From: an uncultured Pseudomonadota bacterium
GTDB lineage: Bacteria; Pseudomonadota; Gammaproteobacteria; Steroidobacterales; Steroidobacteraceae
Length of the DNA stretch: 64,000 bases
Reading direction: 5' to 3'
Assembly (NCBI GenBank): GCA_903879335.1
Contig: CAIRLC010000005.1
Coordinates: 1 to 64,000, forward strand
Shown: piece by piece, positions 49,966 to 64,000 of the stretch
How the letters are laid out: each line of letters opens with the position of its first letter
Position numbering within the stretch: the first letter of the stretch is position 1
Made by a program: the position numbers and the translations under genes
The notes under the pieces: model-generated
What the model was told of the DNA's origin: nothing
The model's input: the letters and a program-made list of their open reading frames with translations, nothing else
The model's database searches: none

Positions 49966-51228
49966 TTATCTCCTTGGGACCAGTGAAACGACCGACTCCG
50001 TTTGGGGTCGGATGTGTGCATTGCGGTGCGCGATCCACAGCCTGAGTAAGACCGTGATGGCGATGGCGCCGTTGACGGCTAGGATGGTCTGTAGGCCAAA
50101 ACGTCCGATCGCATAGCCCGTCAGCAGGTTCCCAAATGCGCCACCTCCGCGTGCGCAGAGCATAAAAAGCGCGACACTTTGACCACGAACTGCACTGGAG
50201 GCTTCCGACTGCACGAGCGCATTGGCGGTCGCATTGGCGATGGTCATGGCGAGCCCAGCGAGGGTGAACAGCGCGATTGACATCACGATTGAGGTGTTTA
50301 AGGCGCCGATCACCACGATGACCGCCAGCATCAGCGCAAAGACCAGACTGATCGAACCACGGTCATGGCGTGGATCGACGCCGACGAGCAGCGTCGCACC
50401 CAACAAGCCGCCCACGCCGAAAGCCACCATCGCGACGCTAAAAATGCCGACCGAGGCGTGCAACACTTCGCGTACCAGCAATGGGCAAAACGTCACGAGT
50501 GGTGAGCAGAACATGCTCGTAACACACGTCGTCAGTAGGACGGTGCGTAGTCGGGGTTGCTGGGCAATATCGCGTAGCGTCGCGCGTAGTCGCTGAAACT
50601 CGGGTGTGCTGTCGCGAGTGGCGGGATGTAAATCGGCCGGCAAGACCCAGATGGCCACTAAGATAAAGGGCACATAGGACAGCGCGCTCACGCCAAAGGC
50701 GCCGGCAGCGCCAAGGCGGGTCATCAGCAGTCCGGCAACGGCAGGTCCTAATATGCGCGATAGATTGAACTGCACTGCATTCAGCGCGATGCCATTCGCG
50801 AGTTCGTCGCGGGCGACGATGGTGGGCACGATGGATTGAAACGAGGGCATTGATAAGGCGTCGGTAATTCCGACCACGAGTGAGAGCAATACAATCATCC
50901 ACGGCTGCAGCTGGTGCCCCAGCAGTAGTCCGATGATGAGGATCGGGCAGAGCATCTGGGCGGACTGTAAGTAGGCGATGACGCGACGCCGATCGACGCG
51001 GTCGGCGAGTACGCCGCCCACTAGGGTCAACATTAAGACTGGGCCGCCCATGGCAAAGGCATCGAGCCCGAGCACGAATGGAGAGGCGCCAAGGCTGAGC
51101 AACAGCCACGGTTGGGCAACCGACTGGGCCCATGTGCCGATGTTGGACAGTAGACTGGACCACCAGAACGTTCCGAATGACTTCGTGCCCAGTAGGGCAA
51201 AGGGTCTCCGGGGGTGTCGATTGCTCAT
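49966..51228 (-). CDS. MFS transporter (MFS_3/EntS-like)
   Basis: 420 residues, 12 membrane helices. The N-terminus FWWSSLLSNIGTWAQSVAQPW (about 17-37) and GGVLADRVDRRRVI (motif A region, about 71-84) place it in the MFS_3 group of exporters such as EntS. The substrate is unknown. It is upstream of and co-directional with the Mg2+ ATPase, with 3 bases between, so they share a transcript. Confidence 0.88.
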   Translation of the reverse strand: MSNRHPRRPFALLGTKSFGTFWWSSLLSNIGTWAQSVAQPWLLLSLGASPFVLGLDAFAMGGPVLMLTLVGGVLADRVDRRRVIAYLQSAQMLCPILIIGLLLGHQLQPWMIVLLSLVVGITDALSMPSFQSIVPTIVARDELANGIALNAVQFNLSRILGPAVAGLLMTRLGAAGAFGVSALSYVPFILVAIWVLPADLHPATRDSTPEFQRLRATLRDIAQQPRLRTVLLTTCVTSMFCSPLVTFCPLLVREVLHASVGIFSVAMVAFGVGGLLGATLLVGVDPRHDRGSISLVFALMLAVIVVIGALNTSIVMSIALFTLAGLAMTIANATANALVQSEASSAVRGQSVALFMLCARGGGAFGNLLTGYAIGRFGLQTILAVNGAIAITVLLRLWIAHRNAHIRPQTESVVSLVPRR

Positions 51229-51509
51229 GCCCTGACACTCTCTCCTTAGGCGAGGTCCACGCGTTCATTGCGTAGAGTTAAAACGGTGACTGGACTCCAT
51301 CACCATGCGCCGGCCGGTCGCCCGAGGCTATTGCGGATTGTGCGCAGCGGCCACGGCTGGGTTGTGGTGGAGCGCACAGCCTCGGAGAGGGGGTGACCGG
51401 CGGATTTTTTTGCCGATTGTCAAAAAAATGTCATCGTTCGGGTGCGATTGTGCGCGGCCGTTCAGCAAACGGCCTTTCGTGTCATCAACGGTCTCGCAGT
51501 GAGGCTTTC
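51229..51509. other. Divergent intergenic region
   Basis: 281 bases between the MFS start (minus strand) and the methyltransferase start (plus strand); both promoters must lie here. The only visible structure is an AT-rich inverted repeat, TTTTTTTG (51405-51412) and CAAAAAAA (51421-51428), 8 bases apart, which could be a regulator site or the remains of a terminator. Confidence 0.4.
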
Positions 51510-52334
51510 ATGTCTGCAGTTTCCGCAACGGATTCGATCTCATGCCGCCTGTGTTCGGCCGTCAGTGCCTACACCTTCAGCAAGCGTCTCCTAGACCGTC
51601 ACGACGTCCGCTACTTCCTGTGTGGCGCCTGCGGCGCGCTCGAAACCGAACCGCCGACGTGGTTGGCCGAGGCCTATCAACCTGAAAACGAGCGTTTTGA
51701 CACGGGGCAGGTCATTCGCAGTCTGCAGAACGCCGCCTTTTTGAAGATGTTGATGGAGACGATCGGTCTTACGGCCTCCACTGCCATCGACTTTGGATGC
51801 GGCTCGGGACTGTTGGTGCGGCTACTGCGCGATCAGGGCATTGACGCCTATGGTCTTGATGCCTATGCCGTGCCGCGCCTCGCGACCGGCTTTGTACGAA
51901 CGACACTGGCTGGGGCCGACGTCATCAACTTGTGTGAGGTTGCCGAGCACTTCGATGATCCGGCACGGGAGTTCAACGCGCTCTTTGCGCACGATCCGCG
52001 CTTGGTCGTCATGCAAACGGCGATTCAGAATACCTTCAGTCCGGACTGGCCGTATTTGGCGCCCGAACATGGCCAACATGTCTTTTTTTATTCCACCGGT
52101 GCCATCCAGGTCTTGGCGCAGCGGCATGGGCGCATTGCCGTGCCCTTGGGTGGATTCGTCGTGTTTGTACACCCCGGTCTCGCAGGGCGGGTGGTTGATC
52201 TGGCTCAAGGGCGGGTGCATCCCGAACTCGAGGCGCGCGTCGGTCAGGCCTTGCCCCGTTTCCTTGAAGGTTTGCTCGCCACCGGCTATCGGTACGCGAT
52301 CGAAGACAATCAACGCATCGCAGCCGTGCCGTAA
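51510..52334 (+). CDS. Zinc-ribbon class I SAM-dependent methyltransferase
   Basis: 274 residues from ATG 51510 (GAGG 5 bases upstream); the frame is open upstream but without homology. An N-terminal zinc ribbon with CRLC (about 11-14) and CGAC (about 37-40) precedes a Rossmann methyltransferase whose motif I is AIDFGCGSGLLVRLL (about 90-104) and whose acidic loop is YGLDAYAV. The EVAEHFDDP block is typical of Methyltransf_23. The substrate is unknown; similar proteins modify sugars or polyketides. It converges on the ABC ATPase gene with 9 bases between stops. Confidence 0.85.
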   Translation: MSAVSATDSISCRLCSAVSAYTFSKRLLDRHDVRYFLCGACGALETEPPTWLAEAYQPENERFDTGQVIRSLQNAAFLKMLMETIGLTASTAIDFGCGSGLLVRLLRDQGIDAYGLDAYAVPRLATGFVRTTLAGADVINLCEVAEHFDDPAREFNALFAHDPRLVVMQTAIQNTFSPDWPYLAPEHGQHVFFYSTGAIQVLAQRHGRIAVPLGGFVVFVHPGLAGRVVDLAQGRVHPELEARVGQALPRFLEGLLATGYRYAIEDNQRIAAVP

Positions 52335-52343
52335 TTCGCGCGT

Positions 52344-53441
52344 TTAGATTCGGTCGCCGGTAACGCCGTCAAAGGCGTGCAGTTGGGTGCTATCCATTTC
52401 TAAGGCGACCCATTCCCCGTAGGCGGGAACGCGTCGACTGCCCAGTCGCGCAATCAATCGACCTAGCGGAAACGCAAGGTGCACCAAGGACTCGGCGCCA
52501 ATTGTTTCGGCAATCTCGGTCGGTCCCTTAATCATGATCGCCCGATCAGCGGGTAACTGCCCCGGTTCGTGGATGTGTTCTGGACGGATACCGATCTGAA
52601 CTCGACGGGCCGGCTGACCGATGAGGTGGGCGAGGGGCCCCGTAAGTGGGATGCTAAATCCCTCACCCACTGCCGTCGTGCCATTGATGATTGCTGGCAA
52701 CAGATTCATCGGTGGAGAGCCCATGAATTGCGCCACAAATGCATTCGCCGGCCGGTCGTAGATCTCCAGTGGCGTGCCCACCTGCATCAGGTTGGGTGTC
52801 GTGTCTGGGCCGGTGGGGGCAAGAACGGCAATCCGGTGTCCGAGCGTCATCGCCTCGACCTGATCATGGGTCACATAGACCGTCGTGGTGGCGAGCGTCT
52901 TTTGCAGCCTTGCGAGCTCCGCCCGCATTTGTACACGCAGTTCGGTATCTAAATTTGAGAGTGGCTCATCGAATAGGAACACCGAAGGCTCGCGGACAAT
53001 CGCGCGCCCGAGGGCCACCCGTTGTCGTTGCCCACCCGAGAGTGCTGCCGGCTTTCGATTGAGCAGCGTGGTAAGGCCTAAAGTATCGGCGACCTGTCCG
53101 ACTCGGCGGCTGATCTCAGCGCTCGCGACGCCGCGGATTGACAGGGAAAAGCCAATGTTCTCGGCAACACGGAGGTGCGGGTATAGCGCGTAACTTTGAA
53201 AGACCATCGCGACGTCGCGATCTTTCGGCGGCACGAGACGCATATCGCGCCCACCAATCGTCAAGGTCCCCGCTGACGGACCTTCGAGGCCTGCGATGAG
53301 GCGCAGTGCCGTCGATTTGCCACAGCCCGAAGGCCCGACCAACACCATGAACTCCCGATCGGCGATGGAGAGCGTGAGGTCATGGAGGACGGTGATGGCG
53401 CCAAAGGTTTTGCAAATGCCGGTTAAGCCGATCGCTGCCAT
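52344..53441 (-). CDS. Sugar ABC transporter ATPase, MalK/UgpC-type
   Basis: 365 residues from ATG 53441, where GGGGAGGG stands about 8 bases upstream; a longer frame to 53591 would cross the regulatory region. Walker A GPSGCGKST (36-44), signature LSGGQRQRVALGRA, Walker B FLFDEPLSNLD, and a C-terminal TOBE regulatory domain (about 240-365). This is the CUT1-family ATPase. The matching permeases and binding protein are encoded at 60.1-63.1 kb, past three other genes, with no ATPase of their own. Confidence 0.93.
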   Translation of the reverse strand: MAAIGLTGICKTFGAITVLHDLTLSIADREFMVLVGPSGCGKSTALRLIAGLEGPSAGTLTIGGRDMRLVPPKDRDVAMVFQSYALYPHLRVAENIGFSLSIRGVASAEISRRVGQVADTLGLTTLLNRKPAALSGGQRQRVALGRAIVREPSVFLFDEPLSNLDTELRVQMRAELARLQKTLATTTVYVTHDQVEAMTLGHRIAVLAPTGPDTTPNLMQVGTPLEIYDRPANAFVAQFMGSPPMNLLPAIINGTTAVGEGFSIPLTGPLAHLIGQPARRVQIGIRPEHIHEPGQLPADRAIMIKGPTEIAETIGAESLVHLAFPLGRLIARLGSRRVPAYGEWVALEMDSTQLHAFDGVTGDRI

Positions 53442-53518
53442 TTGAATTGCCCTCCCCGACGTCGCGGCAGTGTCAGGGTAGACGTGGCGATCGGCAAGTT
53501 CTGGATGATAAATCGTTT

Positions 53519-53530
53519 GCAATCGATTGC
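53519..53530. promoter_or_regulatory. LacI/GalR-type operator candidate
   Basis: GCAATCGATTGC is a perfect palindrome with the central CG typical of LacI-family operators (T-G-N-A-A-N-CG-N-T-T-N-C-A), lying in the 455 bases between the divergent ATPase and receptor genes. No LacI-type regulator gene is in the window. Apart from this I see no gene or clear -10/-35 box in 53442-53896. Confidence 0.5.
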
Positions 53531-53896
53531 GATTTTTGCTGTTGCCTTGCCGCAACAAAAGAACATGATCGATCCTGAAAAATCTTTGCATGGGATCGAA
53601 TCGCGCGTTAATCTCGGCTTCATAAAGAAGCAGCCGGTTACTTCACCAGTTCCAACGGCTGCGAAAGAGGGGGTGATTGGTTTGAGTGCAACAGTCCGAC
53701 GGCTCTCGCAGGGCGAGAGTGCCGACGTCTTCGTTGTCGAGGGTCACTCGGTTCACGCGTGTGTGGACTCGCAGGCCCCTATCCAGAACTCGACCATCGA
53801 TCGAGGGTGCCGCCTGCGCCAAGCAGGCGGCCCTTCGTTCTCTCCCCAGACCAACAGAACCTCTGACTTGATCACTGACTTAAGGAAACTCTCCTG

Positions 53897-56800
53897 ATGA
53901 CTAAGAAGCGAATGACCGCGCAATCGCGCTCAGCAGCTGTAACCGTCGCGGCGGCGGTGGCGGCGATTTTGGCAGGCCCGCGCGTCAGCTATGCGCAGAC
54001 GGCGAACGCTACGCTTCAGGGCTCCGCGCCGGCCAATGCCGAAGTGGTCGCCACGAACCGCTCAACCGGTTTTACCCGCAAGACCAAGGCAGGCGCTGAC
54101 GGCGCGTACACCTTGCTCGGTTTGCCGCCAGGCAACTACACGGTCAGCGCAGGTAAGGGCACCGAACAGGACATCGTTCTGTCGGTCGCAACCACCTCGA
54201 CCCTCGATATCGCGATTCTGGACTCGGTCGTCGTCAGCGGCCGGCGTCTGCTCGAGGTGAAGACGCCGCAAGTTGCGAACGTCGTCTCTCTGCAGGAGAT
54301 CCAGACGGTTCCTCAGTTGACGCGTAACTTCCTTGAGTTCGCGGATACGGTCCCAGGCGCCATTTTCAACGTGGCTCCGAACGGTGCCACGACCTTCCGC
54401 TCGGGCGCGGATTCGCCAGACTCGGTCAACATCTTCATCGATGGTATCGGTCAGAAGGGTTATGTCCGCAGCGGCCAGTCGGGTCAGTCGGACGGCAGCC
54501 AGGGTAATCCGTTCCCGCAGCTGGCCATTCAGGAATACAAGGTCATCACCTCGAACTACGGCGCTGAGTTTGACCAACTCTCGAGCGCCGCGATCGCGGC
54601 CGTCACGAAGTCCGGCACGAACGAGTACCACGGTGAGTTCTTCGGCACCTACTCGAGCGACAGCCTGCGCGCGGCAACGCCATCCGAGCTTGCGGCCAAT
54701 AACAAGGTCCAGTCGAAGGACAAGGAATTCGGCTTCGCGGTCGGCGGCCCGATCATCCAAGACAAGATGCACTTCTTTGCCACCTACGAGGGCAAGAATT
54801 ATTCCCAGCCGGTCGCTGTGACCTACGCGAACACGCCGCCTGCCGCCATCATCGCGGCTTTGCCGTCGAGTGTGCAGTCTCAGGTAGGCCCGTCGTCGAT
54901 TCCGTTCACCGAGAAGTTGGTGTTCGCGAAGATCGACTACGAACCGACCAGCAATGACCGCCTCGAGTTCTCGCTGAAGACCCGTCAGGAAGATTCGGCC
55001 GGTAACGGCGCCGGTGTCGGTCAAGCCGCCTCCACGACGGTCGCGACGCGTAACACCGATTTCCGTTACGACATCCGTTGGCAGCACAACGCGGATCATT
55101 GGTTCAATGAAGCGATCATCGCGAAAGAAAACTCGTTCTTCCGACCACGCGCGGCGAACTACTCGTCGAACGGTGCGGATTACACGTGGTTGCGCGATGG
55201 GAACAACACCGGAATCCTGAACACCGATGGTGCCGACCCGCGCGCCACCCAGGACAAAGGCCAGAAGGGCATTTCCTTCCAAGATGACCTCACTTTCGCC
55301 GACGTCAACCTCGGTCAGGGCAAGCACACCTTCAAGATGGGCGTGAAGTTCAAGTCGGTTGAGTTGACCGCGATGGACGCCTGCCAGTCCTGCTACCCGG
55401 TCTTCAATTACAACGTCGATCCCGTCACCGGCATCGAAAGCGATGCGAATGGCTATGTGCCGTACTCAGCGACCTTCACTGGCATCCCGGTCAGCGTCAA
55501 CGGCCAGCCGCTCGCGAGCGCCATCGCGAAGTCGCAGGACCGTCAGTTCGGCGTGTACTTCCAGGACGACTGGACGGTGACGAACAAGCTGACCTTGAAC
55601 TTGGGCGTGCGTTGGGACCTCGAGCAGAACCCGACCTACCTTGACTGGCAGACGCCGGACTTCGTCCGCAATCTGTTCCAGCAGGAGTCATCGACCCCAG
55701 GCCTGAACTGGGTCGATTACTACAAGCAGGGGCCATTCGGCTACGACATCAACAACTACATGAGCAACGGCCACCAGCGTAAGGCCTATACCGGTGAGAT
55801 CCAGCCGCGTCTGGGCTTCTCGTACGACGTGCACGGCGACGAGAAGTTGGTGGTCATCGGTGGTCTCGGTCGCTCTTACGACCGCGACCTCTTCGACTAC
55901 CTGCAGCTTGAGCAGACGAAGTTGGCGACCTCGGTGCCGACCTCATACTTCAACACGCCAAGCCATCCCTGCACGGTCGACGGCGTGAGCTGCTTGACCT
56001 GGAATTCGAGCTACCTGAATGGCCCAGGCGCGTTGCAGAACGCCGTCAAGGGCACGGTCGGCGACGTGTTCTTGTTCAACAACAACCTCAAAGTTCCGTA
56101 CTCGGACCAGTTCAGCTTAGGGATCCGTTCGCGCCTCGGCGACTGGAACACGAGCGCGGTGGTCAGCCGTATCCACTCCAAGAACGGCCTGACCTTCGTG
56201 GTCGGCAACCGTGGCCAGGGTGGCCAGTACTTCGTACCAGAGCCTTGGGGCGGTTACGGCACGCCGTGGGACGTCACGCCGGGCGTGAACACGCCGGTCG
56301 GCATGACCAACAACCTGATCCTCACCGACAACGACGTCGAGATTCGCTCGACGCAGGTCTTGCTGAGCGCCGAGAAGCCGTTCACGCACGAGTCGGGCTG
56401 GGGCTTGAAGGTGTCGTACACCTTCACGCAGGCGGAGACCAACTCCATCCCGAACGATCAGGGCGGCAACTTCACCAACACCGAGTTCTCGGTCAGCTAT
56501 CCGAACATCAAGTCCTACCCATTCCTGCAGTCGACGAACGCCCCGAAGCATCGCTTGGTGGCGAGCGGCTCGTTGGCTCTGCCTTGGGACATGATCTTGG
56601 GCGGCAAGTTGACGCTGTCGACCCCACTGCCGGGTTGGGACTCGTCGTGCGGACCGACGCGCGGACCTTTGGGTCAGCCGTGTGACGACACCGTCCGGAC
56701 GCCAGACGTGACCTTGGGCTACAAGAGTCTGGATCTGCAGTTGACCAAGAACTTCAAGTTCGCCGACGCGTTTAGTGCCTATGCGCGTATCGACTTGTTG

Positions 56801-56944
56801 AATGCGTTCAATCACGCCAACTTGGTGAATCAGAACACGACCTATGCGCCAGACGGCACAGTCGCGACCCACTACTACAACCCGACCGGCAACATCTCGA
56901 ACAGCATGCGTACAGTTCGGTTGTCAGTCGGCGGTAAGTTCTGA
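53897..56944 (+). CDS. Oar-like TonB-dependent receptor with carboxypeptidase-like domain
   Basis: 1015 residues. A signal peptide (about 1-33, ending SYAQ) precedes a beta-sandwich of the CarboxypepD_reg type (about 35-105, GAYTLLGLPPGNYTVSAGKG), then VVVSGRRL as TonB box, plug and a large barrel ending in Phe (SVGGKF). This is the Oar/SusC-like class used for oligosaccharide or peptide uptake. No SusD gene is beside it. It likely imports the glucan pieces cut by the GH144 protein. Transcription ends at two consecutive hairpins. Confidence 0.93.
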   Translation: MTKKRMTAQSRSAAVTVAAAVAAILAGPRVSYAQTANATLQGSAPANAEVVATNRSTGFTRKTKAGADGAYTLLGLPPGNYTVSAGKGTEQDIVLSVATTSTLDIAILDSVVVSGRRLLEVKTPQVANVVSLQEIQTVPQLTRNFLEFADTVPGAIFNVAPNGATTFRSGADSPDSVNIFIDGIGQKGYVRSGQSGQSDGSQGNPFPQLAIQEYKVITSNYGAEFDQLSSAAIAAVTKSGTNEYHGEFFGTYSSDSLRAATPSELAANNKVQSKDKEFGFAVGGPIIQDKMHFFATYEGKNYSQPVAVTYANTPPAAIIAALPSSVQSQVGPSSIPFTEKLVFAKIDYEPTSNDRLEFSLKTRQEDSAGNGAGVGQAASTTVATRNTDFRYDIRWQHNADHWFNEAIIAKENSFFRPRAANYSSNGADYTWLRDGNNTGILNTDGADPRATQDKGQKGISFQDDLTFADVNLGQGKHTFKMGVKFKSVELTAMDACQSCYPVFNYNVDPVTGIESDANGYVPYSATFTGIPVSVNGQPLASAIAKSQDRQFGVYFQDDWTVTNKLTLNLGVRWDLEQNPTYLDWQTPDFVRNLFQQESSTPGLNWVDYYKQGPFGYDINNYMSNGHQRKAYTGEIQPRLGFSYDVHGDEKLVVIGGLGRSYDRDLFDYLQLEQTKLATSVPTSYFNTPSHPCTVDGVSCLTWNSSYLNGPGALQNAVKGTVGDVFLFNNNLKVPYSDQFSLGIRSRLGDWNTSAVVSRIHSKNGLTFVVGNRGQGGQYFVPEPWGGYGTPWDVTPGVNTPVGMTNNLILTDNDVEIRSTQVLLSAEKPFTHESGWGLKVSYTFTQAETNSIPNDQGGNFTNTEFSVSYPNIKSYPFLQSTNAPKHRLVASGSLALPWDMILGGKLTLSTPLPGWDSSCGPTRGPLGQPCDDTVRTPDVTLGYKSLDLQLTKNFKFADAFSAYARIDLLNAFNHANLVNQNTTYAPDGTVATHYYNPTGNISNSMRTVRLSVGGKF

Positions 56945-56962
56945 TCGGACGACGGAGCGGGG

Positions 56963-56996
56963 ACAGCCCCGGGAGCTCGGCTCCACGGGGCTGTTT
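56963..56996 (+). terminator. Intrinsic terminator after the Oar-like receptor
   Basis: ACAGCCCCG (56963-56971) with CGGGGCTGT (56986-56994), continued by GGAGC / GCTCC round a TCG loop with one bulged A, then TTT. A very stable hairpin 19 bases after the stop. Confidence 0.85.
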
Positions 56997-57012
56997 CGGA
57001 TGATCAAATCTA

Positions 57013-57047
57013 AGGCCCGGCCGCTACAGCGCCCGGGCCTATTTTTT
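57013..57047 (+). terminator. Second intrinsic terminator
   Basis: AGGCCCGG (57013-57020) pairs with CCGGGCCT (57033-57040), loop 12 bases, then A and six T (57042-57047). It ends 14 bases before the halogenase ATG, so it may act as leader attenuator for that gene as well as backup terminator. Confidence 0.85.
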
Positions 57048-57061
57048 GAGACTATGCAGCC

Positions 57062-58573
57062 ATGAATGCCCAACCTTTAAAGTCGATCGTGATCGTCGGC
57101 GGCGGGACCGCCGGCTGGATGAGCGCAGCGGCGCTGGCGAAAGCCCTATGCCCCAGTGTCCAGGTTCGTCTGATCGAGTCGGACGAGATCGGTACGGTCG
57201 GCGTTGGCGAAGCAACGATCCCGGCCATGCGCATATTCAACGACACCTTAGGCTTGCCTGAGGCGGAGTTTGTGCGCGAGGTGAAAGGCACCTTCAAGCT
57301 CGGCATTCAGTTCCGCAATTGGGGCAAGCTCGGCGACGCCTATTTCCACGGCTTTGGGCATCTCGGCCACGACTACGGCCCGAATCCCTTCCACCAGTTG
57401 TGGCTGCATCAGATGCTGGCGGGTAAAGCCGGCGACTTGGCGGATTACTCACTGCATAGCGTCGCAGCGCCCCAAGGTCGCTTTATGACCTCGCCGAGCG
57501 ATGCGCCGCTGAACTCACCGCTGCGGGATTTCCCGCATGCGTATCACTTCGATGCCGGACTCTACGCACGCTACCTGCGTCGCTATGCCGAAAAGCGTGG
57601 TGTGCGCCGGACGGAGGGTCGCGTCGTTGATGTGCAGTTGCGCGCGACGGATGGTGCGATTGATGCGGTGATGCTGGAAGATGGTGAGCGGGTCAGCGCG
57701 GATTTCTTCATCGACTGTTCAGGCTTCCAGGGTCTTTTGATCGAGAAGGCCCTGCAGACGGGATACGTGGATTGGACGCACTGGTTGCCTTGCGATCGCG
57801 CGGTGGCCGTGCCCTGTGCCAAGTCAGGCCCCGCGTTGCCCTACACCGTCTCCACCGCCCACAAAGCGGGTTGGCAGTGGCGCATTCCGCTGCAGCATCG
57901 CACCGGCAACGGTCATGTGTTCTGCAGTCGTTACACCAGTGAAGACGAGGCGACGGCCACCCTGCTGTCGAACCTCGATGGCAAGCCGCTGGCGGATCCA
58001 CGGATCTTGAAATTCACGACGGGTCATCGGCGCCAATTCTGGAACCGGAATTGCTTGGCGATTGGTCTTGCGAGTGGCTTCATGGAGCCGCTCGAATCGA
58101 CCAGTATTTACCTGATCCAGTCCGGCATCGGCCGCTTCTTGAATTTGCTGCCGGACCAGCGTTTCAGCCAAACCCTGATCGACCGTTACAATTCCCAAGC
58201 GATCTTCGAGTTCGAGAGAATTCGCGACTTCCTGATCCTGCACTATTACGCGAACCAACGCGTGGACGCGCCGTTCTGGCAGGACTGCGCCCACATGGCG
58301 ATTCCCGACTCATTGGTGGAGAACATCGAGTTGTTTAAGGACAGCGGGCGCTTCTTCCGCAATGCCGAAGAAATGTTCGCCGTCACCAGTTGGGTGCAGG
58401 TGATGATCGGCCAAGGTGTCATACCGACCGGCTGTCATCCGGCGCTGTATACGCTGCCAGACTCAGAGATTGAAAAAGTAGTCGGGATGACGCGGCAGGT
58501 GATCGCCAACTGTTCGGCGGCGATGCCGATGCACGAGCAATTCATTGATCGATATTGTCGAGCGCCAGTCTAG
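57062..58573 (+). CDS. Flavin-dependent tryptophan halogenase-family protein
   Basis: 503 residues. FAD motif GGGTAGW (13-19); Lys79, matching the catalytic lysine of PrnA in position and setting (GTFKLGIQF); the halogenase signature WQWRIP (271-276); and EPLEST (342-347) containing the catalytic Glu. All active residues are present, so it should form hypohalous acid with reduced flavin supplied by a separate reductase (none nearby). Family members beside TonB-dependent receptors in Xanthomonads and Caulobacters mostly have unknown substrates. There is no signal peptide. Two terminators precede it. Confidence 0.92.
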   Translation: MNAQPLKSIVIVGGGTAGWMSAAALAKALCPSVQVRLIESDEIGTVGVGEATIPAMRIFNDTLGLPEAEFVREVKGTFKLGIQFRNWGKLGDAYFHGFGHLGHDYGPNPFHQLWLHQMLAGKAGDLADYSLHSVAAPQGRFMTSPSDAPLNSPLRDFPHAYHFDAGLYARYLRRYAEKRGVRRTEGRVVDVQLRATDGAIDAVMLEDGERVSADFFIDCSGFQGLLIEKALQTGYVDWTHWLPCDRAVAVPCAKSGPALPYTVSTAHKAGWQWRIPLQHRTGNGHVFCSRYTSEDEATATLLSNLDGKPLADPRILKFTTGHRRQFWNRNCLAIGLASGFMEPLESTSIYLIQSGIGRFLNLLPDQRFSQTLIDRYNSQAIFEFERIRDFLILHYYANQRVDAPFWQDCAHMAIPDSLVENIELFKDSGRFFRNAEEMFAVTSWVQVMIGQGVIPTGCHPALYTLPDSEIEKVVGMTRQVIANCSAAMPMHEQFIDRYCRAPV

Positions 58574-58582
58574 GGGTCCGAG

Positions 58583-58627
58583 GACCTCAGGATTCGGGTT
58601 TGACATGCCGACTAAAGGCCTGAGGTC
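58583..58627. repeat. Inverted repeat between halogenase and GH144 genes
   Basis: GACCTCAGG (58583-58591) and CCTGAGGTC (58619-58627), a perfect 9-bp inverted repeat with 27 bases between. No T-run. It may be an operator or a weak pausing hairpin before the lipoprotein gene, whose ribosome site GGAGG is at about 58700. Confidence 0.4.
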
Positions 58628-58711
58628 GTCGCGAGCGCCGCAACCGCGAGTCAATGGAGAGCCGAGCGCCCGCGGTCGACAAGCGCCCATGTCATAGTTC
58701 GGAGGTTTTCT

Positions 58712-60154
58712 ATGTTGACGCGTCATCGCCTGATTGGGTTGTGTTTGATGGCGGTCGTCACGGCTGGCTGTGCAGGGGGGGCTACTACAACGGCCATGCC
58801 GGTACCCGCAGCGGCTCCACCGAGTGTGGCGACAAGCGCGCGATTGGATGAACTCGAACACCGTTCGTTTGATTACTTCTGGGACTCGGCGAACCCGGCG
58901 AACGGGCTTGTGCCCGACCGCTACCCGACGCCCACCTTCTCCTCAGTGGCTGCGGTGGGCTTCGCGCTGAGCGCCTACACCATCGGGGCGGAGCGGGGCT
59001 GGGTGACGCGCAGTGCCGCCGCGGCGCGGACCTTGACGACGCTCAAGTTCCTGCGTGACTTGCCGCAAGGCGATGCGCCGAGCGGCACCGCCGGTTTCCA
59101 CGGCTTCTTTTATCACTTCCTGGATATGCAGACGGGTCTGCGTTATCTCACCAATGAGCTGTCCACGATCGACACGACGCTCTTGATGGCCGGCGTGCTC
59201 TCGGCCGAGCAGTACTACACCGGCGCCGATGCCACGGAGAGCGAGATCCGCAGCGTTGCCGACACGCTCTACCGTCGGGTCGAGTGGGACTGGTTGGCGG
59301 ACAGTCAGGGTCTTGTCGCGATGGGCTGGAAGCCGGAAGTCGGCGAGTATCCCGCCCGTTGGCTCGGCTATAACGAAGCGATGCTGCTCTATGTGCTCGG
59401 GATCGGCTCACCCACCCATCCGCTGCAGGGATCGGCCTGGAGCGCATGGACGCAAGGTTACGAGCGCACCTGGCGTAGCGAGTACGGTCAAACCTATTTG
59501 GGATTCCCGCCGCTTTTTGGCCACCAGTATTCCCACGCGTGGATCGACTTCAACGGCATCCAGGATGCGTACATGAAGTCGAAGAACAGCGATTATTTCA
59601 AGAACAGCCGCGCCGCAACCTACGCACAGCAGGCCTATGCCGCGCAAAACACGCTCGGTTATACCGGTTACGACGCCACCGTCTTTGGCGTCACGGCCTG
59701 CGATGGACCCGGAGCCATGACGCTCACCATCAACGGCACCCCGCGTAAGTTCTACGGCTATGCCGGCCGCGGCATGGGTGGCATCAACACCTACGACGAT
59801 GGCACCTTGGCGCCCACAGGTGTGGTGTCATCCATCGCCTTTGCACCCGACATTGTCCTGCCCGCCATCGGCACCTTGTTGGCCCGATACGGCGATTTCC
59901 TCTACGGCCGCTATGGGTTCTTGGACGCGTTCAATCCGAGCATTCCCGATGGCACCGTCGTGCAGAGTGGCCGCGTGGTGCCGGGCAAGGGCTGGGTGGA
60001 TGTCGATTATCTCGGTATCGACGAAGGTCCGATCGTGCTCATGATCGAGAACTACCGCAGCGGATTGCTGTGGACCTTGATGCGCGCCAACCCCTACATC
60101 AAGAACGGACTCAAGGGCGCCGGCTTCAGCGGTGGCTGGGTCGATACGCCTTGA
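58712..60154 (+). CDS. GH144/glucoamylase-family lipoprotein (beta-1,2-glucanase-like)
   Basis: 480 residues with a lipoprotein signal (VVTAGC, Cys20). The body fits the Pfam 'glucoamylase' family (PF10091), which contains GH144 endo-beta-1,2-glucanases: LEHRSFDYFWDSANPANGLV (about 48-67), GFHGFFYHFLDMQTG, GWKPEVGEYPARWLGYNEAM and GYAGRGMGGINTYDDGT. All are aromatic/acidic blocks of the (alpha/alpha)6 barrel. It likely cuts glucan in the periplasm or at the cell surface. Its stop overlaps the next start (TTGA). Confidence 0.85.
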   Translation: MLTRHRLIGLCLMAVVTAGCAGGATTTAMPVPAAAPPSVATSARLDELEHRSFDYFWDSANPANGLVPDRYPTPTFSSVAAVGFALSAYTIGAERGWVTRSAAAARTLTTLKFLRDLPQGDAPSGTAGFHGFFYHFLDMQTGLRYLTNELSTIDTTLLMAGVLSAEQYYTGADATESEIRSVADTLYRRVEWDWLADSQGLVAMGWKPEVGEYPARWLGYNEAMLLYVLGIGSPTHPLQGSAWSAWTQGYERTWRSEYGQTYLGFPPLFGHQYSHAWIDFNGIQDAYMKSKNSDYFKNSRAATYAQQAYAAQNTLGYTGYDATVFGVTACDGPGAMTLTINGTPRKFYGYAGRGMGGINTYDDGTLAPTGVVSSIAFAPDIVLPAIGTLLARYGDFLYGRYGFLDAFNPSIPDGTVVQSGRVVPGKGWVDVDYLGIDEGPIVLMIENYRSGLLWTLMRANPYIKNGLKGAGFSGGWVDTP

Positions 60155-61413
60155 AGCGATTCCTCGCCCTCGCGCCACTCCTTGTCCTGCTCAGTGCCTG
60201 TCGGGGCGAGCACCAAGACATTGAGTTGCGCTTCTGGGCGATGGGCCGTGAAAGCGAGATCTTGGAGCAGTTGATGCCGGCCTTCGAGCGCGAGCATCCG
60301 GGCGTACACGTGCGCGTGGAGCAGCTGCCGTGGACGGCGGCACACGCGAAGCTCTTGACGGCCGTGGCGGGGGATTCCACGCCGGATTTGTGCCAGCTCG
60401 GCAACACCTGGGTGGCTGAGTTGGCTGACCTTGGCGCCTTGAAAGCCTTAGACGGCGATCTCAGTCGCAGCGATGCGGTGCCGGCAACGGATTATTTCCC
60501 CGGGATCTGGCGCACCAATCAGATCGGCACGCGTCAGTATGGGGTGCCGTGGTACGTCGATACGCGCTTGCTGTTTTATCGCAAGGATATACTGGCGGCG
60601 GCCGGCTACGCGTCCGTGCCGACCGATTGGGCCGGGTTCAAAGTGATGCTGGCGAAGATCCGCGCGCAGTCGCACGGTGAGCGCTACGGGATCTTGTTGC
60701 CCTTGAATGAGTACGAACCGATCCTCGCCTTGGCGCTCCAGTCCGAGACGCCCGTGCTGAAAGAGCAAGGCACGCGCGGTAATTTTTCGAACCCTGACTT
60801 TGTCGCCGCCTTCAGCTACTACATCTCGCTGTTTGATGACGCTTTGGCACCACCGGTGACGAATTCGCAGATCTCGAACGTCTGGAATGAATTCGCACGC
60901 GGCTATTTTGCGTTCTACATCACGGGTCCCTGGAACATCGGCGAGTTCCGTCGGCGCTTGCCGCCCGCGCTGGCGGGACACTGGGGCACGGCACCCTTGC
61001 CCGGGCCGCATGGCCCCGACGCATCGATTGCCGGCGGCGCCAGCCTCGCGGTGTTTAAACGCACGCAGCATCCGGCAGAAGCCTGGGCCTTGGTCGAGTA
61101 CTTGAGTCGACCGGCCGTCCAGGAGCGCTTCTACGCCTTGACGGGGGATTTGCCGGCGCGGCGCTCGGTCTGGGAAACCGGGTCGGTCAAGGATGATCCG
61201 ATGACCGCGGCCTTTAGGGAGCAACTGGAGCGGGTCCGGCCCGCGCCTGCGGTCGCCGAGTGGGAAGAAATCATGACGGAGCTGCGCCTGATGGCCGAGC
61301 ACGTCGTCCGGCACGAGCTGACGCCCGCTGAAGGGGCGGCGGAACTCGATCGTCGCGCGGACCGGATGCTCGCCAAGCGTCGCGAACTCGTGCATGCAGG
61401 ACGCTTGCCGTGA
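60151..61413 (+). CDS. Sugar-binding lipoprotein of an ABC importer
   Basis: 420 residues. The start is TTG 60151, overlapping the GH144 stop by 4 bases; it gives a perfect lipoprotein leader, KRFLALAPLLVLLSAC, whereas the only upstream ATG (60070) lies inside the neighbour. The family pattern (IELRFWAMGRESEILEQLMP, PDLCQLGNTWVAELADLGAL, GGASLAVFKRTQHPAEAWAL) is that of CUT1 extracellular solute-binding proteins. It should bind the oligosaccharide after passage through the outer membrane. Confidence 0.9.
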   Translation: MKRFLALAPLLVLLSACRGEHQDIELRFWAMGRESEILEQLMPAFEREHPGVHVRVEQLPWTAAHAKLLTAVAGDSTPDLCQLGNTWVAELADLGALKALDGDLSRSDAVPATDYFPGIWRTNQIGTRQYGVPWYVDTRLLFYRKDILAAAGYASVPTDWAGFKVMLAKIRAQSHGERYGILLPLNEYEPILALALQSETPVLKEQGTRGNFSNPDFVAAFSYYISLFDDALAPPVTNSQISNVWNEFARGYFAFYITGPWNIGEFRRRLPPALAGHWGTAPLPGPHGPDASIAGGASLAVFKRTQHPAEAWALVEYLSRPAVQERFYALTGDLPARRSVWETGSVKDDPMTAAFREQLERVRPAPAVAEWEEIMTELRLMAEHVVRHELTPAEGAAELDRRADRMLAKRRELVHAGRLP

Positions 61414-62285
61414 CGCGCCGTTGGCTGGGCTGGCTGTATGCGGGGCCTGCGCTCCTCGTGCTTGCCATTTTTTTTGTCGTGCCGGTGCTGGCTGCGCTGC
61501 TGCTCTCGGTGACGGATTACGACCTCTACGCCATCGCCTCCATCCACAACCTGCGCTTCGTCGGGCTGCGCAATTACGCCGACCTGCTCAGCAATCCGCT
61601 CTTTTGGCAGGCGCTTTGGAATACGGTCTACTTCGTGGTGGTCGGCGTGCCCTTGAGTTTGGCCGCGTCCTTAGGCGGCGCGGTGCTTGTGCACTCGAAA
61701 GTGGCGCGCTTCAAGGGCTTTTTCAGAACCGCCTATTTCGCGCCATCGATCACGACGGTGGTGGCGGTGGCGGTGATCTGGCGCTATCTGCTGCATACCC
61801 GCTATGGCCTGATCAACTATCTGTTATCGATGCTCCATATTGCGCCGATTGATTGGTTGGGCGATCCGCATTGGTCGATGCCGGCCATCATCTTGTTCGC
61901 CGTCTGGAAGAACTTCGGCTACAACCTCGTCATTCTGTTGGCTGCTTTAGGGACCATTCCGGCTGATCTCTATGAGGCGGCGGAATTGGACGGCGCGGGC
62001 GCCTTCGCCCAGTTTCGCCACATCACGCTGCCCGGCATCCGCGGCACGCTCGGCTTCGTGGGCTTGCTGACGATGGCCGGATATTTCCAGCTCTTCGCTG
62101 AACCCTACGTCATGACTCAGGGCGGACCGGCGCAAAGCACGCTCTCGGTGCTCTACCTGTTGTATGACGAGGGCTTTAAGTGGTGGAACCTCGGTCGCGC
62201 CTCGGCGGTGGCCTTCGTCCTGTTCTTGCTGATGTATGCGACAGCGCTGCTGCAACACCGCTGGACGCGGGAACACAGGCCATGA
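61410..62285 (+). CDS. Sugar ABC transporter permease, MalF-type
   Basis: 291 residues, six membrane helices, start GTG 61410 overlapping the binding-protein stop by 4 bases. The EAA loop reads YEAAELDGAGAFAQFRHITL-type (about 190-209, EAAELDGAGAFAQF). The N-terminus WLGWLYAGPALLVLAIFFVVP is typical of the MalF/UgpA group. It pairs with the next gene and the MalK-type ATPase at 52.3 kb. Confidence 0.93.
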   Translation: MTRRWLGWLYAGPALLVLAIFFVVPVLAALLLSVTDYDLYAIASIHNLRFVGLRNYADLLSNPLFWQALWNTVYFVVVGVPLSLAASLGGAVLVHSKVARFKGFFRTAYFAPSITTVVAVAVIWRYLLHTRYGLINYLLSMLHIAPIDWLGDPHWSMPAIILFAVWKNFGYNLVILLAALGTIPADLYEAAELDGAGAFAQFRHITLPGIRGTLGFVGLLTMAGYFQLFAEPYVMTQGGPAQSTLSVLYLLYDEGFKWWNLGRASAVAFVLFLLMYATALLQHRWTREHRP

Positions 62286-63097
62286 GGCGCCACACGCTGC
62301 TGGTCAATGCGCTGCTGATCCTCACGGCCGGCTTAACGCTGTTCCCGCTCGTGTGGATGGTCTCGGTGAGCCTCATGCCGGCCGGCACCTCGGCGACCTA
62401 TCCGCCGCCGCTCTGGCCCGCGCATCCGACGCTGGCCAACTACACCGAGTTATGGACCCACGCCGGGATGGCGCGGCACTTGCTCAATTCCTTGGGTCTT
62501 GCGACCGTGGCCACCGCGCTGGCACTGACCCTGAATGTGGCGGCGGGCTATGCCTTTGCCAAGCTTGAGTTTCCCGGGCGTGAGGCGGTCGCCAAAGCCC
62601 TGTTGGCTGCGCTCGTCATCCCGGCGCAGGTGGCGATGCTGCCGCTTTTCTTGGAACTCAAGGCGCTGGGTCTCGTCGATACGTACGCCGGCGTGTTGGT
62701 GCCGTCACTGGCCGGCATCTTCAGCATTTTCCTGGTGCGCCAAGCGGCGCTCGCCATTCCTCATGAACTCATTGACGCTGCGCGCATGGATGGGGCCTCC
62801 GAGTGGACGATCTTTCGGCGGGTGGCTTTGCCCTTGATGCGCCCCATGTTGGTCACGCTGGGCGTATTTGCGTTTCTGGGCAGCTGGAATGATTTTTTCT
62901 GGCCGCTCATCGTCTTGAACGACTCCGACCGCTACACCTTACCGGTCGCCTTGGCGGCGCTGTCGCGCGAGCACGTGCAGGATAATGAACTGATGATGGC
63001 CGGCAGTGTCGTCACCCTCGTGCCGGTCTTGGCACTGTTCCTCGCGCTGCAACGGCATTATTTGGCCGGCCTCATGGCAGGGGCGGTGAAGGGATGA
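62282..63097 (+). CDS. Sugar ABC transporter permease, MalG-type
   Basis: 271 residues from ATG 62282, overlapping the previous stop by 4 bases (the longer frame from 62180 lies inside it). Six helices, the EAA loop IDAARMDGASEWTIFRRVAL, and FLGSWNDFFWPLIVL near the end are characteristic of MalG/UgpE. It completes the importer. Confidence 0.93.
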   Translation: MRRHTLLVNALLILTAGLTLFPLVWMVSVSLMPAGTSATYPPPLWPAHPTLANYTELWTHAGMARHLLNSLGLATVATALALTLNVAAGYAFAKLEFPGREAVAKALLAALVIPAQVAMLPLFLELKALGLVDTYAGVLVPSLAGIFSIFLVRQAALAIPHELIDAARMDGASEWTIFRRVALPLMRPMLVTLGVFAFLGSWNDFFWPLIVLNDSDRYTLPVALAALSREHVQDNELMMAGSVVTLVPVLALFLALQRHYLAGLMAGAVKG

Positions 63098-64000
63098 GCG
63101 CTCGAGTCTTCGGCGTGCTGCTGGCCTGCGCCATGCTCTCAGCGCCGCGCGCTGTGGCGCGCCCGCTCGATACGCTGCCGGGAACCGGGCCCTGGACGTC
63201 GATCGCCTCGGATGATGTGGCGGTGCAGACGGCGGTTGCAGAGGACGGCACCCTATCGATCGAGTGGGATTACCGCCATCACGCCGGCTACGCCGGCGCA
63301 GCGCGGGCACAGCCGATCGATTGGCCTGAAAATTTTGAACTGGCCATTCCGCTCAAGGGCGATGTGGCCGGCAATGTGTTGGAACTGAAATTCGCCGACG
63401 CCTCGAACGACAACGTCTGGTGGGCGCGGGCGGTCAACCTGTCGATGCCCGCGGCAGGTCAGGTCTTGCGCGTGCGCCGGCGCGATGTGAGCTTTGCGTG
63501 GGGTCCGGCCCGAGATCATGCGCTGACGCATACGGTGCGGCTGGAACTCCTGGTGACCGCTCGGTCCGGCCGCAGCGGCGCGTTGCAGGTGGGGCCGATT
63601 GAACTGATCCCGAAGCCGGTGGCGCCGACCGCACCGCCGCCGGCTCAGGTGCGCCTTGAGTCCGGCCTCGTGGCCTTGCCCGATGGCACGGGTCCGGCGC
63701 TCGCGGTCGCACACCCCATCGTCATCGACTGGGGCGCGCCCCGGGAGATCGGCGGCGTGCGCCTCGAGTGGCAAGAGGATCAACCGCATGCGGGTGTACT
63801 GGAGTCCTCAGCGGATGGTGAGCATTACACGACGCTGAGCCGCTACGGCGGCCGTGGTCGTATTGACTGGGTTGCCTTTGACGCGCGCGAGGATCGCTAT
63901 TGGCGATTACGGCCCGACGCGGCGCCAGCAACGCAGGCTTTGGTATCGGTCACGCCGGAGGCCGCTGACTTTGGCGAAGACCCCAACCGCCGGCTGATCG
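63094..64000 (+). CDS. Secreted carbohydrate-binding protein, partial (runs off right edge)
   Basis: An open frame from ATG 63094 (ATGA overlap with the permease stop) continues to the edge, 302 codons seen. A signal peptide (VFGVLLACAMLSAPRAVA) leads into a beta-sandwich (about 25-175, FELAIPLKGDVAGNVLELKF and DNVWWARAVNL) like carbohydrate-binding modules. A second domain (about 195-285) holds IDWGAPREIGGVRLEWQED and REDRYWRLRPD, like F5/8 type C (discoidin) domains. The missing C-terminus probably carries a catalytic domain. It looks like the last visible gene of the glucan operon. Confidence 0.75.
   Translation, partial: MSARVFGVLLACAMLSAPRAVARPLDTLPGTGPWTSIASDDVAVQTAVAEDGTLSIEWDYRHHAGYAGAARAQPIDWPENFELAIPLKGDVAGNVLELKFADASNDNVWWARAVNLSMPAAGQVLRVRRRDVSFAWGPARDHALTHTVRLELLVTARSGRSGALQVGPIELIPKPVAPTAPPPAQVRLESGLVALPDGTGPALAVAHPIVIDWGAPREIGGVRLEWQEDQPHAGVLESSADGEHYTTLSRYGGRGRIDWVAFDAREDRYWRLRPDAAPATQALVSVTPEAADFGEDPNRRLI

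Follow-up and report, generated by a model that had tools for sequence, protein, structure and literature searches.

We describe a locus at the end of a 64,000-nucleotide stretch of DNA from an uncultured Steroidobacteraceae bacterium (the window, G000:C5:1-64000, in a genome of 3.14 Mb and 46 contigs). Here the gene of an Oar-like TonB-dependent receptor is followed by that of a flavin-dependent halogenase, and both stand among genes of a putative beta-1,2-glucan pathway. Comparison with related loci shows that the receptor and the predicted halogenase are passed on, and exchanged, mostly together. On balance, we suggest that the locus consists of two adjoining modules, a glucan pathway assigned by homology and the receptor–halogenase pair, whose halogenase may act on the receptor chain. 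The kind of locus is already known; the receptor–halogenase cassette is the new point. No paper on the pairing was found in the open-access literature as far as it was available, subscription literature lying outside the scope of the search.

The receptor–halogenase pair in a sister genome

The sister genome G057 was compared with the stretch 51001-64000 of the window. It has a clear counterpart of the window's GH144 locus (L042), with the MalK gene 72% identical at the nucleotide level and the part from the GH144 gene into the gene of a 1034-residue protein 74% identical. The receptor and halogenase genes of L042 are merely 64% and 68% identical to those of the window. The window's pair aligns with a different contig of the same genome (G057:C151, locus L062) in a single block of 4660 columns, 81% identical and containing exactly the two genes. 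At L062 the pair is flanked on one side by an open reading frame (ORF) with DUF4372, a domain of IS4-type transposases. On the other side, a PemK/MazF-like gene lies about 0.6 kb past the halogenase. None of the neighbours of the L062 pair was recognised as a sugar gene: of the remaining 11 ORFs with 110 residues or more in 15 kb, seven have a Pfam family, in no case a sugar one, and four have none. The base composition of the window does not clearly set the pair apart, and no direct repeats were found inside either of its border stretches, each searched by itself.

Pairing across relatives

The best 80 of at least 590 halogenase relatives were inspected; by record title they come from Alpha-, Beta- and Gammaproteobacteria, with one labelled Bacillus. 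A TonB receptor lies directly upstream on the same strand in 56 of the 80. A same-strand receptor is within 6.5 kb without being adjacent in 9, and a different receptor is nearby in 5. Receptors are absent within 6.5 kb in 7, and the contig end is too close to judge in 3. These counts refer to the 80 query halogenases alone and supersede an earlier tally of 59/99, which covered every halogenase in the 80 loci. Neighbours found in single loci belong to the alpha-amylase, pullulanase, GH97, GH2, GH43, GH30 and glucokinase families and, by similarity, to GH3. Hence, the sugar varies among halogenase loci. In Caulobacter vibrioides DSM 9893 (L131), for example, the locus comprises LacI, receptor, halogenase and GH3-like genes.

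The halogenase also tracks the receptor in sequence divergence. In the 16 loci that have halogenase, receptor and GH144 together, the correlation of halogenase distances is r 0.85 with receptor distances (partial r 0.78 after correction for GH144, p 0.001) and r 0.62 with GH144 distances (partial r 0.37, p 0.001). With the window omitted the partial values are 0.76 for the receptor and 0.55 for GH144 (p 0.001 for the latter). One locus, L066, was excluded for a broken halogenase frame; variants of the test gave a partial r of 0.83 with 13 loci, and of 0.29 (p 0.09) with 17 loci including L066. The halogenase thus tracks the receptor more than GH144, though not exclusively. The L066 gene itself (L066:8416-9733, genome G031) is interrupted by stop codons and a broken frame, through either gene decay or faulty assembly.

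A quickly built tree of 116 halogenases (96 loci) has some long branches; 73 of its members have a receptor directly upstream (26 Oar-like and 47 Plug-type by best match). Receptor class changes twice on this tree, compared with 21.7 changes in shuffles, none of 500 shuffles being as low. For Oar receptors, a quick tree on which 130 rows carry a label shows 8 changes of pairing state, compared with 39.8 in shuffles. Such clustering of labels shows inheritance; a functional bond does not follow from it alone.

Among 150 genomes of the family, GH144 was found in 40, a halogenase in 62 and a receptor of the window's type in 35. Class-wide and order-wide receptor searches gained merely two genomes outside the family. 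We compared 20 GH144-centred loci out of 47 matches, nearly the 20 top-scoring ones. The preliminary description of the window had proposed to check whether halogenase and GH144 stay linked: they do in 9 of the 20 (L042-L048, L057, L060; the L048 halogenase is clipped by the contig start), the halogenase is absent in 10, and L055 is too short to judge. In genomes G094, G010 and G048 the halogenase is present and lies in overlapping ORFs. In five loci (L053, L054, L056, L058, L059) the gene directly 5' of GH144 encodes a more distant receptor (32-40% identity), and there is no halogenase.

It might be argued that the halogenase is a general companion of sugar-induced operons, for example through use of O2 and flavin when growth is fast, and that its adjacency to the receptor is only a matter of operon order. 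Among the seven loci without a receptor in range, a pullulanase stands directly upstream of the halogenase in L097 and L105 and a GH97 in L129, and in L130 the halogenase lies amid MalK-, LacI- and GH1-like genes, all of which would suit this view. However, the pair is also found without recognised sugar genes, and the halogenase stays with one receptor class; we therefore regard a mere operon companion as an unlikely explanation. No sugar gene was identified in three of the receptor-less loci (L119, L136, L151).

Some loci are arranged in other ways. In L091 and L124 of Xanthomonas two tandem Oar-like receptors precede one halogenase, those of L124 belonging to distant lineages. L111, L126 and L142 have three to four consecutive halogenase genes near one receptor, some of them very long-branched.

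The halogenase and its possible substrate

The motifs of the halogenase are GGGTAG (residues 13-18), K79, WQWRIP (271-276) and EPLESTS (342-348). They correspond to the GxGxxG, catalytic Lys, WxWxIP and catalytic Glu-Ser of the BrvH/Xcc4156 type, to which the protein is therefore predicted to belong; the catalytic roles of K79 and the Glu are presumably those of PrnA. Its Trp_halogenase score in Pfam is 645 bits at a cut-off of 21, so that the assignment is not due to chance, and the preliminary description was right in reading a halogenase with its catalytic residues here. Among solved relatives, 9luq scores highest (535 bits) and is annotated merely as tryptophan halogenase; Xcc4156 (6y1w) follows with 514, BrvH (6frl) with 477 and PrnA with 318 bits.

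Four halogenases are encoded in the host genome, one of them truncated shortly before its end where the contig stops; in addition, a fragment lies at a contig edge. Two of the further halogenases follow receptors of the Plug-domain class, and one of these adjoins an alpha-galactosidase. As the preliminary description had remarked, the locus shows no flavin reductase. Little follows from this absence, because a candidate is encoded at another site of the genome, its sole PF01613 flavin reductase-like match (G000:C13:57231-57668). That match lies about 7.5 kb from another halogenase (C13:65150).

The preliminary description tied the halogenase substrate to glucan uptake. This link is not supported, as the halogenase tracks the receptor more closely than GH144 and recurs in loci for other glycans. 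We suggest that the halogenase would serve the receptor more than beta-1,2-glucan, because the pair moves largely jointly and in many sugar pathways. According to the available part of PMC7336383, it is not known what BrvH and the Xcc enzymes act on in nature, and a peptide is conceivable.

One candidate is a small aromatic compound from a plant, a competitor or the organism itself as a signal, which would enter through the receptor or be sensed with it. BrvH halogenates free indole in vitro and Xcc halogenases brominate screening substrates (available parts of PMC5945002 and PMC7336383). The enzyme of the window is also probably cytoplasmic, as no signal-peptide-like start is seen by eye. However, the pairing also occurs in loci for unrelated glycans, so that a single co-imported aromatic would be needed for every one of them. 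We consider such a substrate possible, with the balance clearly on the side of doubt.

The other candidate is the receptor chain. The cytoplasmic halogenase would modify this chain before export, with Trp or Tyr being halogenated or oxidised. The enzyme is faithful to the receptor class irrespective of the sugar, and the receptor chain therefore fits better than a sugar-specific aromatic; it is the substrate that we favour of the two. Taken by itself, the proposal that the receptor chain is the substrate is tentative and less likely than not, because the residue tests described below are non-significant and a cysteine correlate failed.

A minority of the loci have further genes next to the pair, of putative oxygenase or unknown families. 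Cupin_8 genes occur in 4 and DUF6445 genes in 5 of the 80 loci by clustering, with three of each confirmed by Pfam (Table 1). In the host genome, a protein with TPR and a 2-oxoglutarate (2OG)-Fe(II) oxygenase domain (L009:13706-15244) is encoded directly 5' of the receptor in a receptor–halogenase–melibiase locus, and a copy 56% identical stands in the same gene order in a gammaproteobacterial metagenome-assembled genome (L149:5161). These neighbours would suit a set of receptor-tailoring enzymes. In its broadest form the proposal would be that in Proteobacteria a dedicated, cassette-borne cytoplasmic halogenase tailors its own class of sugar-importing TonB receptors by halogenating or oxidising aromatic residues, that Cupin_8, DUF6445 and 2OG-Fe(II) oxygenases belong to the same kit, and that this is the native role of the BrvH/Xcc4156-type halogenases; we put it forward as speculation that is rather improbable as a whole.

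Receptor residues and points against the proposal

Receptors with and without a halogenase were compared in two sets. The first had 47 Oar receptors; after removal of four (two duplicates, two partial) it consisted of 28 paired and 14 unpaired receptors and one that lies near a halogenase. Of 118 collected for the second, 23 shared 95% identity or more with rows already present and were removed, which left 95, five of them near a halogenase or of unclear state. The joint set counts 50 paired and 80 unpaired receptors, with 3 broken or partial rows excluded and 5 rows of unclear state uncounted.

A tryptophan in a loop was present, as a loose pattern, in 28/28 paired and 2/14 unpaired receptors of the first set. 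In the joint set W791 (loop 780-800) is found in 38/50 paired and 43/80 unpaired receptors; 3.2 of 8 independent pairs go one way and none the opposite way, which is not significant (median p 0.25). Similarly, about 3.5 of 8 pairs lean one way, and never the opposite, at G926 and Q848. A Cys pair at residues 908-935, noticed after the fact, separated 28/28 paired from 0/14 unpaired receptors in the first set. It was rejected as a correlate of pairing by the second set, where 19/23 paired and 56/67 unpaired receptors have it.

The failure of the Cys pair is one of several points that weigh against the two-module reading with a receptor-directed halogenase. With kinship allowed for, the eight best receptor columns of any kind have a median p from 0.125 to 1, and none of the 14 aromatic or His columns is significant (median p 0.25 to 1). 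In the second set 67 of the 90 Oar-like receptors with a settled state have no halogenase behind them. Some of the seven loci without a receptor within 6.5 kb are sugar loci. The GH144 protein also retains the correlation of its own with the halogenase that is given above. The column test, with 8 independent pairs, has little power, and a target varying between receptors would escape it; the residue tests thus give no support to the receptor as substrate, yet no disproof.

The proposed beta-1,2-glucan pathway

Utilisation of beta-1,2-glucan, an unusual bacterial sugar, by the locus is well supported by homology to assayed proteins, which upholds the import reading of the preliminary description. 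The GH144 protein matches PF10091 at 259 bits, and its best solved relative is XCC2207 (8xul, E 2.5e-160), named XcSGL in PMC12102758. The two are identical at 228 of 436 residues (52%). E222, F269, Y350 and I436 of the window's protein correspond to E239, F286, Y367 and I453 of XcSGL; the crystal chain 8xul has Q in place of E239. In the available text of PMC12102758, E239, F286 and Y367 are the clan-defining residues, and XcSGL acts on beta-1,2-glucan and on no other glucan listed in the visible part of that article's Table 1.

The sugar-binding protein has 3uor as its best solved relative and Lin1841 (5ysb, E 3.1e-63) as the second; Lin1841 is the sophoro-oligosaccharide binder of Listeria innocua (available part of PMC12369401). 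The GH94 protein, which is encoded past the window end, is nearest to the GH94 part of cyclic beta-1,2-glucan synthase (E 1.6e-211), and for a GH1 beta-glucosidase acting on these sugars there is precedent in the available part of PMC12369401.

The proposed sugar route leads from the receptor via GH144 and the importer to GH94 and GH1. Cleavage of the glucan by GH144 would take place at the cell surface or in the periplasm, and the fragments would enter through the ATP-binding cassette (ABC) importer with its binding lipoprotein. GH94 and GH1 would then yield glucose 1-phosphate and glucose.

Another beta-glucan or glucoside might be the true substrate of the locus, as GH1 and GH94 are broad families. 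We find this improbable: GH144, the binding protein and GH94 all point to beta-1,2-glucan, and XcSGL shows the restricted activity mentioned above.

Layout of the locus

The genes and positions listed in the preliminary description are borne out (Table 1). Its overlapping ends hold for the last four junctions, from GH144 to the 1034-residue ORF, which overlap by 4 bp given the chosen start codons. They do not hold for receptor and halogenase, separated by 117 bp, or for halogenase and GH144, separated by 138 bp. The predicted lipoproteins and signal peptides were read from the N-termini by eye.

Table 1. Features of the locus (window positions) and genes beside halogenases in other loci (locus positions)
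Feature	Position	Strand	Basis or remark
MalK/UgpC-type ATPase of CUT1 importer, divergent	52344..53591	-	Pfam ABC_tran, OB_MalK, TOBE_2
Intergenic stretch 5' of receptor	53592..53896		LacI-type gene here in five same-genus relatives
Oar-like TonB-dependent receptor, 1015 residues	53897..56944	+	OMP_b-brl_4, CarboxypepD_reg; signal-peptide-like start by eye
Receptor and halogenase, two-gene block	53921..58574		81% nucleotide identity over 4660 columns with G057:C151 (L062)
Flavin-dependent halogenase, 503 residues, BrvH/Xcc4156-like	57062..58573	+	PF04820; without signal-peptide-like start by eye
GH144 endo-beta-1,2-glucanase-like lipoprotein	58712..60154	+	PF10091; XcSGL residues matched
Sugar-binding lipoprotein	60151..61413	+	SBP_bac_1; solved relatives 3uor, Lin1841 (5ysb)
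CUT1 permease 1 (UgpA/MalF type)	61410..62285	+	BPD permease family match
CUT1 permease 2 (UgpE/MalG type)	62282..63097	+	BPD permease family match
First 302 residues of 1034-residue protein	63094..64000	+	F5/8-type domain, then probable six-hairpin glycosidase; signal-peptide-like start by eye
Cupin_8 genes beside halogenases	L147:13074, L128:13154, L136:11558		
DUF6445 genes beside halogenases	L109:9276, L123:12594, L095:7035		

The CUT1 ABC importer set is complete by Pfam, with SBP_bac_1, two BPD permeases and a MalK ATPase with OB/TOBE domains. Past the window end the operon goes on with the rest of the 1034-residue protein, GH94 (1128 residues as read) and GH1. Further 3' there are an exonuclease-like gene, a glucose-6-phosphate-isomerase-like gene and a putative lon gene.

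A LacI-type gene is located 5' of the receptor in 5/5 same-genus relatives in which GH144 was found. The window's locus (L006) has no match to three LacI references, other regulator families being outside the search.

The 'carbohydrate-binding protein' of the preliminary description does have an F5/8-type domain, and it is a fragment, the first 302 residues of the 1034-residue protein (L006:13095-16199). Alone, this protein is below every Pfam or NCBIfam threshold. A profile from 14 relatives places F5/8-type sugar-binding domains at about profile positions 181-300. When the relatives were scanned one by one (E up to 1), F5_F8_type_C was matched by 14/14 (best 2.4e-21) and Bac_rhamnosid6H by 8/14 (best 3.6e-05). 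The latter matches suggest a six-hairpin glycosidase, and we regard the protein as a probable one, possibly of a new glycosidase family. An AlphaFold model of its L083 relative, built from 3 sequences, has a mean pLDDT of 48 and is unusable. The protein adjoins the importer in many GH144 loci.

Comparison with known systems

The locus resembles the CUT loci of Xanthomonas and Caulobacter, which likewise combine a TonB receptor, degradative enzymes and an inner-membrane importer without SusD (available text of PMC1790865). Degradative enzymes and an inner-membrane transporter adjoin the TonB receptor in the window, as in a full CUT locus of that article. In its terms the locus is a 'partial CUT locus', because no LacI-type regulator was matched in the window's copy, in which it differs from CUT loci. 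It differs also in its receptor-paired halogenase, 'halogenase' being a word not found in the main text of PMC1790865. The preliminary description called the locus SusD-less, rightly so: no SusD-like lipoprotein is among the locus proteins scanned with Pfam, the search being confined to the locus, and in the available text of PMC1790865 SusC/SusD are confined to Bacteroidetes and the Xanthomonas loci lack SusD. BrvH and Xcc4156 are the closest described solved relatives of the window's halogenase. The halogenase of the window adjoins a TonB receptor, whereas the main texts of PMC5945002 and PMC7336383 never use the word 'TonB'.

Clusters for sophoro-oligosaccharides are found in Listeria innocua (Lin1839-1841) and Streptomyces griseus (SGR_2423-2427), which are Gram-positive and hence have no outer-membrane receptor. 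Like the window's locus, these clusters hold a binding protein, an ABC importer, a beta-glucosidase and a phosphorylase or glucanase. Unlike in the window's locus, no halogenase is named for them in the available part of PMC12369401.

Implications

With this locus, a further putative pathway for beta-1,2-glucan, one that contains the 1034-residue protein, is described from a Gram-negative bacterium. Halogenases of the BrvH/Xcc type have been studied as biocatalysts, and the pairing narrows the search for their native substrate. If the receptor is the target, proteins would be modified here in a way not described before, with an effect on nutrient uptake. If it is not, the pairing still indicates which deletion strains and growth conditions to study.

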